From the NCBI RefSeq assembly GCF_001907695.1, contig NZ_KV880637.1, positions 1,612,001 to 1,676,000 of the forward strand: DNA of 64,000 bases. The letters run 5' to 3'. This DNA is from Thalassospira sp. TSL5-1 (lineage in GTDB: Bacteria; Pseudomonadota; Alphaproteobacteria; Rhodospirillales; Thalassospiraceae). A model generated the notes under the pieces. It did not search any database, was not told the DNA's origin, and saw nothing but the letters and a program-made list of their open reading frames with translations. The position numbers and the translations under genes were made by a program. This document shows positions 43,036-46,668 of this stretch, piece after piece. Every line of letters begins with the position of its first letter. The first letter of the stretch is position 1.

Positions 43036-44025
43036 TTAATGAAGGGCTTGAACTTGCCGGGCAAAGGTCTTGAGGATTTTGCGTAAACCATCTTCCCGAA
43101 CGATCTCGATGGCTTGCGCAAGGGTAACCCATTTCCGCCCGCGATGCGCTTCTTCCCAGTCTGTTTCAGGTAACAGTTCCGTAACCTTCATGGCAAAAAC
43201 CTCAACGTCGCAGCGTGCACCCCATTTCTGGTAATGATAGCTGCCAATGGCAGGCTCAAGGGCTGTGCCGATACAACCTGCTTCTTCGCGGGCTTCTTTT
43301 TGCGCGCTTTCAACCGCACTCATCCCGGGGTCAATTGCACCCTTGGGGATGACAAAATGTTTGCCGCTGCTGGAAAGCGTCATCAGGATTTCAATATTTT
43401 CGCCTGCGTCATCATCTTGCTTAACTCGGAACGGAATGACCGATGATTGCCGGTAAAAGTAAGGCGGGCGTTTGCGCCTTTCCGTACCATCCTTATCCGG
43501 CCAGGGAAAATCCTGCGGGACCTTGGAGGGGTCCACCTGCTGCAAAATACGCCCGGAAGAGGTTTCCAGATCAGCCCAGTTTCCTGTCATTTCGATCATG
43601 ATCATTGCCGCAGGTTTTAATGACGGAAACATGCGTTTTTTGCGGATGTCCGCGCCCGCGATAAGGGTGGGCAGGGCGCTGATACCGGGATTATGCCCGA
43701 CCATCACAACATGATGCACGTCATCAGCCAGATTTTGCAAAACGTTCCGCAATGTCTGCGCATCGGCATTATAAAGCTGGCGATCGAGGCTAATGGCCGG
43801 TTTCAGGCCGGGAAACAGCATTTTATGCAGTTTTTCGGCTGAATGCTGGGTGCGCTGTGTGGGGGAAGCCAGGATCAGGTCTGGGTAAAGCCCCTGTCTT
43901 TCCAGAAATGCGCCAATACGCTGGATATTCAGTTTACCATCTTCGGTGAGCGGTCGGTAAAAATCGCCCCGGGCGTCATAGGTGACAGCTTCACCGTGCC
44001 GCAAAAGGGTGATTAAACGTTTCAT
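43036..44025 (-). CDS. SixA-like histidine phosphatase fused to a Nudix domain
   Basis: The 329-residue protein has two domains. The N-terminal one (about 1-160) is a histidine phosphatase of the SixA type, with the catalytic RHG in ITLLRHGEAV at 5-14 and the second His in MVGHNPG near 108-114. The C-terminal one (about 185-320) is a Nudix domain with FVIPKGAIDPGMSAVESAQK followed by EAREEAG, where the first Glu of the canonical box is Met, as in diphosphoinositol-polyphosphate-hydrolase-like members. Mycobacterial MutT1 has the same two domains in the opposite order. Substrates are unknown; cleavage of a diphosphate and removal of the resulting phosphate by one chain is a plausible scheme. 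Confidence 0.85.
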   Translation of the reverse strand: MKRLITLLRHGEAVTYDARGDFYRPLTEDGKLNIQRIGAFLERQGLYPDLILASPTQRTQHSAEKLHKMLFPGLKPAISLDRQLYNADAQTLRNVLQNLADDVHHVVMVGHNPGISALPTLIAGADIRKKRMFPSLKPAAMIMIEMTGNWADLETSSGRILQQVDPSKVPQDFPWPDKDGTERRKRPPYFYRQSSVIPFRVKQDDDAGENIEILMTLSSSGKHFVIPKGAIDPGMSAVESAQKEAREEAGCIGTALEPAIGSYHYQKWGARCDVEVFAMKVTELLPETDWEEAHRGRKWVTLAQAIEIVREDGLRKILKTFARQVQALH

Positions 44026-44252
44026 GCCGCTGTCCTTGATATCTGATGTCCATGTGGTTCGGTTTGTGGGAAACCGGATGTTTCTTGCTGTAAAAACAAA
44101 CCGAAACGTGCGGTGTCTGTCAAAGTAAGTACATCGCTATCGTTAGTTACTTATGCAAGTAGAAAGTACGGTCGCCGTATTACATATATCGCTAATTGAA
44201 TCTATGAAATTTTTGTGACGGGAGCGCGGCCAGCCCTACGCATTGCTGGCTT

Positions 44253-44675
44253 TTAGGGCAGAAATTCCCCATCCATGTAAAGCCATTTGCCATTTTGGCG
44301 CACGAAGCGTGATTTTTCATGGTGCGCACCCGAACGGCCTTTTTCCTTAAACCGTGCAATGAATTCAACATATCCGGTCTGGTCAAAAAGCCCGCCTGCT
44401 TCGGTGCTGACAATCTCAAGCCCGGTCCATTTTGTTTGCTGGCGGGCAAGACTGTCACTGTCATAGCCTGCACTGTTTTGTGCAGGCACGGTATCGGCAA
44501 GATACGGTGCATTGCCAAATACAAAGGCGCTATAGCGCGATCGCATCAGTTGTTCGGCCGTGGCGGGCAATTTTACGCCCTGGTGAAACGGGCCGCAGCA
44601 GGCACCATAATTCTTGGTGCTTCCGCAAGGACAGGGCAGGGAAATATCCTGTTGTAAAGGGATCGCAGTTGTCAT
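44253..44675 (-). CDS. ychJ: YchJ-family protein with SEC-C zinc motif
   Basis: The 140-residue protein opens with the SEC-C metal-binding motif CPCGSTKNYGACCGPFH near 15-31, then the family signature AEQLMRSRYSAFVFGNAPYLADT near 41-63 and a C-terminal NTF2-like part ending VRQNGKWLYMDGEF. YchJ/UPF0225 proteins have no proven function. The ATG at 44675 follows AGGTG and begins the conserved region; the frame is open to 44762. It is divergent from rpoH across a 567-bp region. Confidence 0.85.
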   Translation of the reverse strand: MTTAIPLQQDISLPCPCGSTKNYGACCGPFHQGVKLPATAEQLMRSRYSAFVFGNAPYLADTVPAQNSAGYDSDSLARQQTKWTGLEIVSTEAGGLFDQTGYVEFIARFKEKGRSGAHHEKSRFVRQNGKWLYMDGEFLP

Positions 44676-44826
44676 TTCAAAGGCACCTGGTTTGCGAGTT
44701 GAACACGAAATAGAAGGGAACTTTACGGGTCTCACAGCGTTGTGAACATAGAGTGACCGCACCAGAAAGCAAATTGCCTTTTTTTCGCCTTATATCATTT
44801 CTACCGTGAACTTACGGGAAAGATAC

Positions 44827-44851
44827 ATATCCGACTATATCAGTCGGGTAT
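44827..44851. promoter_or_regulatory. IscR type-1-like operator, site 1
   Basis: The 25-bp element has arms ATATCCGACT and AGTCGGGTAT around the core ATATC. It matches the E. coli IscR type-1 motif (left half ATASYYGACT, middle RWWW and Y, right half AGTCRRSTAT) at 24 of 25 positions by my reading. It lies in the divergent region between the ychJ-like gene and rpoH. No Rrf2-family regulator is encoded in this window. Confidence 0.7.
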
Positions 44852-44904
44852 ATTTGATAAAGGACTGATATCATGTCCGAATTTGACGTCAGGTTTCGTG
44901 TTTT

Positions 44905-44938
44905 TAACTTGACGAAATTAGTCGGGTTTAGGTATATT
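44905..44938 (+). promoter_or_regulatory. IscR type-1-like site 2 overlapping a sigma-70-like promoter
   Basis: The element at 44905-44929 (core TTGACG, AAAT, TAGTCGGG) matches the IscR type-1 motif at about 21 of 25 positions. It contains the -35 sequence TTGACG (44909-44914). An 18-nt spacer leads to the -10 sequence TATATT (44933-44938). Binding here would block this promoter, which points toward rpoH. The -35 region CTTGAC could also suit a sigma-32 promoter. Confidence 0.6.
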
Positions 44939-44969
44939 AGTCTTAAAGCGGGTGGGGGCCCATTAGGCA

Positions 44970-45131
44970 CCGCCGGATTTCAGTCCGGCCAGGTTTGGCG
45001 GACGTAATGTCGATTTGCTTCAGAGTAAGGATGAGACGTATCATGAATACAGTTATCTGCTTCAGTCGTCCTCTCGCATAGGCGTTTTGCGAAATGGCAC
45101 TTTTCGGGGACCCAACGCCCCGCCGCCATTT
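44970..45131 (+). other. Structured leader region upstream of rpoH
   Basis: Two structured elements follow the promoter. At 44970-45001, CCGCC can pair with GGCGG, or GCCGGA with TCCGGC; the arms overlap, so the folds compete. At 45092-45131, AAATGGC / GCCATTT encloses CGGGG / CCCCG. No T-run follows either. The rest of 44676-45242 holds no convincing gene. The strong AGGAGG before rpoH lies outside these hairpins. Confidence 0.45.
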
Positions 45132-45242
45132 CTGTCTATGACGTGTTTTGTTTACACAATTACGAGGTCGCGTATCGTTTCCGGTTTTGACATCAGACCC
45201 AGGATATACCGGATACGTTGACCTCCCAGGAGGACAAGAACC

Positions 45243-46112
45243 ATGAGCACCCTTAAATTGCCTGCCGTCCCCCAGGATGACGGTTTCTCAGGATATCTTC
45301 GCCAGGTATGGAAATTCCCGATGCTGACCGCAGACGAGGAATATATGCTGGCACGCCGCTACGTGGAACATCAGGATACTGAAGCAGCCCACAAAATGGT
45401 GACGAGTCATCTGCGTCTTGTCGCAAAAATCGCCTTTGGTTATCGTGGCTATGGGTTGCCGCTGCCTGATCTGGTAGCCGAGGGCAATACCGGCCTGATG
45501 CGTGCGGTTCAGAAATTTGATCCGGAAAAGGGTTTCCGTCTGTCAACTTACGCCATGTGGTGGATCCGTGCCGCTGTGACGGAATATATCCTGCATAGCT
45601 GGTCGATGGTGAAGCTGGGCACGATGGCTGCACAGAAGAAACTGTTCTTTAGTCTGCGCAAAGCCAAGAAGCAGCTTAATATTTACGATAATGGTGAATT
45701 GACCCCGGAACAGGCCGGTGAAGTTGCACAGCGTCTGGGTGTGACCGACAAGGAAGCCCTGGACATGAACCGTCGTTTGGCGGCGCGTGACTTCTCGCTC
45801 AATACTCCGATGCCCAAGGACGAGGGTATGGAGTATCTCGATACCCTGGCATCCGAGGCACCGTCACCCGAGGCCCTGGTGGCAGATTCCGAAGAGCGGA
45901 CCCTGCATAACGGCATGCTGAAAAATGCGCTTGGCGAATTGCCGGATCGGGAACGTGAAATCATTATGGCCCGTTTCCTGAGCGATGATCCGATCACGCT
46001 GGAAAAACTGGGTGAACGTTTTGGCGTTAGCCGTGAACGTGTCCGTCAGTTGGAAGCCCGCGCTTTCAAGAAGTTGCAGGAATCTGTTCTGACACAGCAT
46101 CAGGCAGCTTAA
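45243..46112 (+). CDS. rpoH: RNA polymerase sigma-32 factor (heat shock)
   Basis: It directs RNA polymerase to heat-shock promoters. The 289-residue protein has region 2 (HLRLVAKIAFGYRGYGLPLPD, GNTGLMRAVQKFDPEKGFRL, STYAMWWIRAAVTEYIL), the RpoH box QKKLFFSLRKAKKQL near 136-150 that is diagnostic of sigma-32 and used for degradation control, and region 4 with the helix-turn-helix TLEKLGERFGVSRERVRQLE near 250-269. CCCAGGAGGACAAGAACC gives a very strong ribosome-binding site. A leader of about 300 nt separates it from the promoter carrying the IscR-like site. A terminator follows at 46149. Confidence 0.97.
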   Translation: MSTLKLPAVPQDDGFSGYLRQVWKFPMLTADEEYMLARRYVEHQDTEAAHKMVTSHLRLVAKIAFGYRGYGLPLPDLVAEGNTGLMRAVQKFDPEKGFRLSTYAMWWIRAAVTEYILHSWSMVKLGTMAAQKKLFFSLRKAKKQLNIYDNGELTPEQAGEVAQRLGVTDKEALDMNRRLAARDFSLNTPMPKDEGMEYLDTLASEAPSPEALVADSEERTLHNGMLKNALGELPDREREIIMARFLSDDPITLEKLGERFGVSRERVRQLEARAFKKLQESVLTQHQAA

Positions 46113-46148
46113 CCGGATTTCCGGCCTCCCGTAACATGATCAAGATTT

Positions 46149-46178
46149 AAGGGTGGTAACATTGCCACCCTTTTTTTG
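46149..46178. terminator. Bidirectional terminator after rpoH
   Basis: Perfect stem AAGGGTGG / CCACCCTT with an 8-nt loop and a run of seven T, between convergent rpoH and a Nudix gene. Confidence 0.92.
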
Positions 46179-46194
46179 TGTTTGGATTGTTTGT

Positions 46195-46668
46195 TTAAGA
46201 CGAAGGAAGCCGATTCCGCCGGCCGTGCGCCTGGCGCGATTTTTCGATCACCCGCAAAGTCACGGTCCATAAATTATAGGTTTCAAGCCTGTCGGGATCA
46301 GCCCAGATGGCATCACTGGCATCGTCACCGGCAATAGGCAGGGCTGTGCCGGTCACCGCATCGGCCGAAAAATCCAGAAGCGTATAATGATAAAGCGGTT
46401 TGCCATGTGCGCCGCCCGGCGTGATCAAATCGATAATCTCGAGAAATTCGATATTGGTGATACGAATGCCGGTTTCTTCAAAAACTTCGCGTTCCAGTGC
46501 CTGTTGCACGGTTTCCCCCAGTTCCTGGGCACCGCCTGGCAGACTCCATTCGCCCGCTTTGGGCGGCCGCCCCCGGCGGATCAACAGAACCTTGCCCTCA
46601 TGCCAGACAACGGCCCCAACGCCAATCATGGGCCGTAACGGATTTTCCCGACCAGCAGATACAGTCAT
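46195..46668 (-). CDS. Nudix hydrolase (ADP-ribose pyrophosphatase-like)
   Basis: The 157-residue protein has the complete Nudix box GGAQELGETVQQALEREVFE followed by ETG near 45-67, after VLLIRRGRPPKAGEWSLP. This N-terminal pattern is seen in small ADP-ribose or nucleoside-diphosphate-sugar hydrolases; the exact substrate is undecided. Its ATG follows directly after the stop codon of the upstream small gene, so the two are co-translated. Confidence 0.87.
   Translation of the reverse strand: MTVSAGRENPLRPMIGVGAVVWHEGKVLLIRRGRPPKAGEWSLPGGAQELGETVQQALEREVFEETGIRITNIEFLEIIDLITPGGAHGKPLYHYTLLDFSADAVTGTALPIAGDDASDAIWADPDRLETYNLWTVTLRVIEKSRQAHGRRNRLPSS

Follow-up and report, generated by a model that had tools for sequence, protein, structure and literature searches.

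Genes and features upstream of rpoH

The DNA analyzed here, which we call the window, is a stretch of 64,000 nucleotides from the genome of Thalassospira sp. TSL5-1. Our interest is in the space between two divergently oriented genes, a ychJ-like gene on the minus strand and, on the plus strand, rpoH, which encodes the heat-shock sigma factor sigma-32. Between them lie two palindromes resembling operators for IscR, a promoter-like sequence reading toward rpoH, and a predicted leader with a short open reading frame (ORF). In coordinates of the window, the features are as follows.

44253 to 44675, minus strand: divergent ychJ-like (SEC-C) gene, matched by NCBIfam YchJ-type models below their cut-offs
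44827 to 44851, no strand assigned: site 1, the more upstream of the two palindromes, an IscR type-1-like operator that matches the Escherichia coli consensus at 24 of 25 positions
44905 to 44929, plus strand: site 2, an IscR type-1-like operator over the -35 element, 21 of 25 to the same consensus
44909 to 44938, plus strand: sigma-70-like promoter, TTGACG, 18 nt, TATATT, reading toward rpoH
44948 to 44999, plus strand: 5' portion of the conserved leader RNA, with GC-rich predicted hairpins and long runs invariant among the genus loci
45008 to 45038, plus strand: ROSE-like hairpin, with the anti-Shine-Dalgarno sequence UUGCU (45015 to 45019) opposite AAGGA (45027 to 45031)
45043 to 45081, plus strand: leader ORF of 12 codons, MNTVICFSRPLA
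45068 to 45074, plus strand: GTCCTCT at the end of the leader ORF, complementary to the rpoH Shine-Dalgarno sequence and invariant in all 29 genus loci
45091 to 45132, plus strand: hairpin after the leader ORF, arms 45091 to 45098 and 45125 to 45132
45229 to 45235, plus strand: Shine-Dalgarno sequence of rpoH, GGAGGAC
45243 to 46112, plus strand: rpoH, RNA polymerase sigma-32, TIGR02392 at 337.3 bits (cut-off 323.1)

The original prediction, made from the sequence of the window, had named rpoH as the next gene downstream of the promoter. Its identity holds, by TIGR02392, and the gene also matches NF005143 (354.7 bits, cut-off 241). The 12-codon ORF, which had gone unmentioned, lies in between. 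The predicted transcript would begin with a leader of approximately 300 nt that carries the ROSE-like hairpin, this ORF and, at the end of the ORF, the complement of the rpoH Shine-Dalgarno sequence. No terminator was listed by our scan in the interval from the promoter to rpoH.

The promoter had been predicted from the TTGACG contained in site 2 and the TATATT at 44933. We found this pair (TTGACG at 44909 to 44914, an 18-nt spacer, and TATATT at 44933 to 44938) to be the best sigma-70-like site within 44000 to 46500, scoring 10/12. As a class, promoter-like sites show no clear excess in that interval, with four found and a mean of 2.6 (standard deviation 1.7) in shuffled sequence.

Two predicted IscR-type operators

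The type-1 consensus of E. coli IscR is the 25-bp palindrome ATASYYGACTRWWWYAGTCRRSTAT. Rescoring the two sites against it reproduced the counts that had first been obtained by hand, 24 of 25 for site 1 and about 21 of 25 for site 2, and among all 25-mers of the window on both strands these are the sole places with 20 or more matches, the next best having 19. With at most three mismatches allowed, site 1 is the only match in the 64-kb window, where none of 100 shuffled versions has a match, and it is also the only match in the whole 4.97-Mb genome.

A bare E. coli pattern nevertheless failed as a test of regulon membership, missing this genome's own isc operon at three mismatches. It was too strict for the purpose, and we therefore built a motif from the isc promoters of the group itself. 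The resulting weight matrix draws on isc promoters from 25 of 30 genomes examined in other families of the order, and includes neither Thalassospira nor any rpoH sequence. Of the 127,952 25-mers in the window, site 2 scores highest with this matrix (27.0 bits), followed by site 1 (22.1 bits), and the next unrelated place has 8.9 bits. The training sites themselves score at least 23.0 bits (median 32.1), which puts site 1 just under the training range. For the whole genome we used a site model made from 24 of the 25 matrix sites, with 150 of 1,609 first-look candidates scored. It returned two matches at E ≤ 10 in 4.97 Mb, one at the isc promoter (E 0.0249), the other at site 2 (E 0.0259).

The claim that both sites are of the IscR type is supported by a matrix derived from the isc promoters of other genomes, and the expectation that the isc operon would carry the same kind of box agrees with the two matches of the genome-wide model. 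That sites 1 and 2 look like real IscR-type operators is well supported by these comparisons, most firmly for site 2. We also tried a loose half-site pattern, which proved to be without signal (148 matches versus 281 in a reversed control). A pattern drawn from the isc and rpoH boxes, with at most one mismatch allowed, gave six matches, including two perfect ones that are its own sources, versus 21 in the reversed control; no further IscR targets therefore stand out.

The isc operon and IscR of the same genome

In the TSL5-1 genome, cysE, iscR and two iscS-like genes form a single run, and the promoter precedes cysE. Of the 28 isc loci examined in the genus, 26 have the promoter, with the sequence ATACTTGAC...GTTACTCGGTTATCCTATATT; one genome (G020), in which only a cysE paralogue was available, was left out of this comparison, and the two promoter-less loci (L071 and L077) are shortened ones. 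The common design is CTTGAC..TCGG..TATATT together with an upstream site of the CCGAG type, which a loose pattern finds in 25 of the 26. The upstream box starts approximately 55 nt before CTTGAC at isc and approximately 78 nt before it at rpoH in the genus. By the E. coli pattern, the isc sites of the genus score 20 to 22 of 25. Of 30 iscR loci from the order, 27 contain, within approximately 1,500 upstream bases, a place that matches the E. coli consensus at 18 or more positions, compared with 3 of 53,865 positions downstream, and the sites typically read ATACTTGACYNNNTTAGTCGGGCAT followed by a TATAT box.

The regulator encoded in this operon is one of four Rrf2-type proteins of the genome. 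Its best NCBIfam match is TIGR02010 (IscR), at 185.6 bits, below the cut-off of 207.55. Its translation holds the three cysteines and one histidine expected of the [2Fe-2S] site. In alignment with E. coli IscR 4hf1, a chain in which the cysteines are mutated, the contact segments slsyleqlf and svrgpgggy are kept; a homologue with the expected contact residues is encoded, as the original prediction supposed. The protein also keeps the S, Y, E, Q and R contact residues named in PMC11475020.

Conservation of the operators at rpoH

We compared the region upstream of rpoH in a genus set of 29 Thalassospira genomes, whose sequences are closely related and not independent of each other. TTGAC and TATATT stand at the same place in all 29. 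Site 2 scores at least 19 bits in 27, the exceptions being a weak site at 15.8 bits and a degraded one at 8.2 bits. Site 1 scores highest in the TSL5-1 genome (22.1 bits) and between 4.6 and 20.8 bits in the other 28; it starts 77 to 78 nt before CTTGAC, and 27 of the 29 loci have it by a loose pattern. Thalassospira belongs to the Rhodospirillales, and upstream of 63 rpoH loci from other families of this order the best score of the isc matrix on either strand was 12.0 bits, so the IscR box at rpoH looks restricted to the genus. Conservation of the sites among relatives, on which the original prediction depended, consequently holds within the genus, well for site 2 and loosely for site 1, but not in these other families. 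At the level of sequence comparison, then, the identity of the operators, the sharing of one kind of box between isc and rpoH in the TSL5-1 genome, and the conservation of site 2 and its promoter within the genus are results rather than conjecture.

A conserved leader with a ROSE-like hairpin

Downstream of the promoter lie approximately 135 nt that are strongly conserved in the genus, and the leader that begins there ranks with the best-conserved DNA of the alignment. A model of this leader finds one copy in each of the 29 genus genomes, and one weak match (E 0.005), which we judged by eye to be spurious, in the rest of 297 genomes of the order. In a separate collection, 22 of 23 leader stretches come from Thalassospira and one from a Rhodospirillales metagenome-assembled genome. 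No covariation was seen in the leader within the genus, because the base pairs do not vary.

The conserved stretch ends in the leader ORF, which UUGCUUC..AAGGA directly precedes. The corresponding stretch in other families has the form CATATTGCTTC-loop-GGAGGATATG and mostly lies 130 to 280 nt before rpoH. In seven other-family loci, the hairpin is instead placed directly at the rpoH start codon and carries the rpoH Shine-Dalgarno sequence itself, a position that fits an element acting in cis.

Other families also provide the variation that the genus lacks. A fixed rule finds the hairpin in 44 of 63 rpoH loci of the order, one of them misplaced, versus 59 of 1,260 sequences shuffled as single bases; under the same rule it occurs in one of the first 29 loci examined outside the order. 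The 63 loci (15 + 28 + 20) are a subset of those listed and include at least two second copies (L169 and L170); the misplaced match is in L160, whose likely hairpin lies elsewhere, and L157 was missed owing to a short flank. With the misplaced hairpin dropped, 41 distinct hairpins chosen by the rule remained, from rows picked for lower-stem pairing, which favors structure. In these, 94.1% of cells pair, and changes on both sides occur in 18 cells versus 5.9 after shuffling. Their covariation score is 0.307, compared with 0.196 (standard deviation 0.015) for shuffled and at most 0.144 for slid controls, and a repeat with one row exchanged by hand (L202 out, L201 in) gave nearly the same result. 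The number of pairs changed on both sides, four, was reached by 57 of 500 shuffles and is not exceptional. By these comparisons, the hairpin of the other families is a covarying one.

Searched against Rfam at a permissive E-value, the region of the window returned only poor, unrelated matches and ROSE was not recognized. For one relative (L156), the best Rfam match is a full-length one to RF00435 (ROSE), which scores 20.8 bits against a gathering threshold of 45; at gathering thresholds no match was found in eight relatives. We therefore describe the element as ROSE-like and do not assign it to the ROSE family. Simulated melting from 20 to 45 °C showed next to no opening: the unpaired value rose from 0.39 to 0.42 for the window and from 0.02 to 0.09 for L156, in a nearest-neighbor folding that omits the non-canonical pairs of ROSE elements. 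The plasmid copy of rpoH in Azospirillum B510 has no such hairpin by eye. A second rpoH-like gene, 51% identical, is present in the TSL5-1 genome (G000:C1:1416976-1417785), and the hairpin pattern was not found in the 450 bases upstream of it.

In the genus, the hairpin that follows the leader ORF occurs with at least three unrelated pairs of arm sequences, by eye GAAATGGC/GCCATTTC, CGACCGG/CCGGTCG and GAAGGCC/GGCCTTC, so its structure seems to be selected. Between the leader hairpin and rpoH, at approximately 45142 to 45159, 24 of the 29 genus loci have a GTG-N8-CAC palindrome (for example, GTGAATTAATTCAC), which we take to be CRP-like; it is degenerate in the other five, those of the clade to which the window belongs.

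A leader ORF that ends in the complement of the rpoH Shine-Dalgarno sequence

Comparison of the 29 genus loci shows the leader ORF open in every one, with 12 or 13 codons and its own Shine-Dalgarno sequence, although the start codon shifts. Most of the hairpin-bearing loci in other families likewise have an ORF after the hairpin, of varied length and sequence. The leader peptide contains one to three cysteines in 28 of the 29 genus genomes and none in L010.

The partner of the invariant GTCCTCT, the Shine-Dalgarno sequence of rpoH, reads GGAGGAC in 28 of the genus loci and GGAGGAT in one, and the mean predicted pairing probability of the helix between the two ranges from 0.20 to 0.93 in the genus. 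Covariation of the masking strand was absent from the 29 genus sequences, in which that strand never varies. A test of pairing between the leader ORF and the rpoH Shine-Dalgarno sequence against shuffled ORFs was mostly negative, with three of its 55 entries falling below 0.05. Seven or more of the 55 are invalid because the hairpin lies directly on rpoH, and some start codons were misassigned. A test of position, designed after this negative result and applied to related loci, placed the best anti-Shine-Dalgarno window at the end of the leader ORF in 25 of 26 distinct genus sequences (3.3 expected), and did so for 18 of the 40 loci from the order, where 7.0 were expected. In the order both partners can differ in sequence, for example CTGTCTCCCA opposite GGGAGA and TGTCCCGAAT opposite TTCGGGA. 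A relay from the leader ORF to the rpoH Shine-Dalgarno sequence is, on this evidence, plausible.

Alternative explanations

The operators might mainly serve the divergent ychJ-like gene, or both genes, with rpoH transcribed mostly from a closer promoter. A strict SEC-C pattern, found in 3 of the 29 genus loci, had suggested that ychJ is missing from most of the genus, but tblastn overturned this: a homologue is kept in the same place and orientation in all 29 loci and is equally conserved. A second, weak promoter-like site (45151 to 45178, 9/12) does lie closer to rpoH, and the GTG-N8-CAC palindrome is found near it in 24 of the 29 genus loci. Against this, site 2 lies on the -35 element of a promoter directed at rpoH, in nearly the geometry found at the isc operon; our scan for promoter-like sites lists none on the minus strand in the interval from the operators to the ychJ-like gene; and the leader that starts from the site 2 promoter is so highly conserved. 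We consider this explanation improbable. A binding protein other than IscR, from elsewhere in the Rrf2 family, seems very improbable indeed: the genome encodes four such proteins, but a box of this kind also occurs at the operon of which iscR is itself a member, and the IscR model TIGR02010 is the best match, though below its cut-off, of the protein encoded there.

Other explanations concern the RNA. The promoter might make a separate IscR-controlled small RNA, consisting of the leader of approximately 135 nt, with rpoH merely downstream. Its strong conservation, the single copy in each genus genome and the hairpin that follows the conserved leader would all suit such an RNA, which we nonetheless regard as rather unlikely, since the scan finds nothing to end it before rpoH, the element lies upstream of rpoH in the genus, and a related hairpin sits at the rpoH start codon in seven loci. 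One could also take the ROSE-like hairpin to be part of an ordinary structured leader that does not sense temperature, its ORF and complementarity being incidental. The failure of Rfam to recognize the window, the minimal simulated melting, the wide differences between families in the leader peptides and the mostly negative shuffled-ORF test speak for that interpretation. On the other side are the UUGCU opposite a Shine-Dalgarno sequence, the covariation in other families, the full-length match by which RF00435 is the best Rfam family for one relative, and the enrichment of the hairpin over shuffles, together with the relatives in which it carries the Shine-Dalgarno sequence of rpoH itself. 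An incidental leader of this kind strikes us as doubtful, but it deserves to be taken seriously.

Proposed mechanism

We think it likely, judging from the sequence, that an IscR-controlled promoter makes the rpoH mRNA and that a regulatory leader follows it. When Fe-S clusters are plentiful, [2Fe-2S]-IscR would occupy site 2 over the -35 element, helped by site 1, and keep the promoter low, as at isc; when clusters are short, repression would be lifted and more rpoH mRNA made. We infer this repression by the holo form from E. coli and from the operators that the two promoters share.

The leader probably adds control by heat. In the scheme that we propose, the ROSE-like hairpin would hide the Shine-Dalgarno sequence of the 12-codon ORF, while the end of that ORF would pair with, and so hide, the Shine-Dalgarno sequence of rpoH. 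Warming would open the hairpin, ribosomes would traverse the short ORF, and rpoH would then be translated. The wider proposal, to which we give slightly less than an even chance, is that across the Rhodospirillales a ROSE-like thermometer controls the translation of a short leader ORF, which in turn exposes the Shine-Dalgarno sequence of rpoH, that in some lineages the thermometer acts directly on rpoH, and that Thalassospira has put this device under an IscR promoter of the isc type, combining Fe-S shortage with heat. If true, it would offer a concrete mechanism for a connection between iron limitation and rpoH that has been seen but not explained in Caulobacter, it would add the master regulator of the heat-shock response to the small heat-shock genes as a target of ROSE-like thermometers, and it would suggest that a leader-ORF relay can stand between a thermometer and a sigma factor. 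Species of Thalassospira can be grown in ordinary laboratory culture.

Relation to known systems

The isc operon of E. coli is under the control of IscR, and its iscR promoter has palindromic type-1 sites, one of them over the -35 element of a sigma-70 promoter. The arrangement upstream of the Thalassospira rpoH is alike, with type-1-like boxes and one of them over a sigma-70 -35 element; unlike in E. coli, it forms a second promoter of the same design, placed before a heat-shock sigma gene.

The original prediction knew of no link between Fe-S status and sigma-32 in this group of bacteria, and as worded this is not supported. Caulobacter crescentus, an alphaproteobacterium with a single isc-suf operon, has an IscR that binds the rpoH regulatory region in electrophoretic mobility shift assays, as well as the dnaK region (PMC11475020), and its rpoH is up 5.16-fold in iron limitation, in a manner that the authors say remains to be determined (PMC3751524). 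The likeness is in the meeting of IscR with the rpoH region. The type-I motif of Caulobacter is A-rich, whereas the Thalassospira boxes resemble those of E. coli; and the paired boxes, the ROSE-like leader and the leader ORF of Thalassospira go unmentioned in the available text of PMC11475020. The operator architecture is therefore a new variant although the link itself is not wholly new, and the leader RNA may be the more original part. In the listed open-licence literature joining Thalassospira and IscR, as represented by titles and the starts of abstracts, there was nothing on IscR control of rpoH.

ROSE thermometers (RF00435) consist of several hairpins, with U(U/C)GCU opposite the Shine-Dalgarno sequence in the 3' hairpin as their mark (PMC3669281, PMC4166951), and the Thalassospira leader is similar in both respects. 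According to a 2014 account, the ROSE family is found with small heat-shock genes without exception (PMC4166951), and the ROSE elements of M. loti are placed at such genes (PMC3989490). The Thalassospira hairpin, by contrast, lies upstream of a leader ORF and rpoH and falls below the Rfam threshold; hairpins of this kind usually mask the Shine-Dalgarno sequence of a leader ORF. Among the matches listed in the open-licence literature, we noticed neither a ROSE element nor a thermometer-gated leader-ORF relay at an alphaproteobacterial rpoH.

The rpoH thermometer of E. coli likewise uses mRNA structure to restrict access to the Shine-Dalgarno sequence of rpoH, but that structure involves up to 229 nt of the coding region (PMC4166951); in Thalassospira we propose that the end of the leader ORF does the masking. 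In this respect the leader recalls another class of regulators, with a short translated leader ORF in a context able to hide the Shine-Dalgarno sequence of the next gene. Such are the erm leaders, translational attenuators that are triggered by a drug-stalled ribosome; the trigger proposed here would differ, being temperature, acting through the ROSE-like hairpin.

A further observation concerns the isc operon. The gene upstream of iscR, cysE, encodes serine acetyltransferase (L066:3889-4665), and an IscR box precedes it in 26 genus loci, an arrangement that would tie cysteine supply to cluster assembly.
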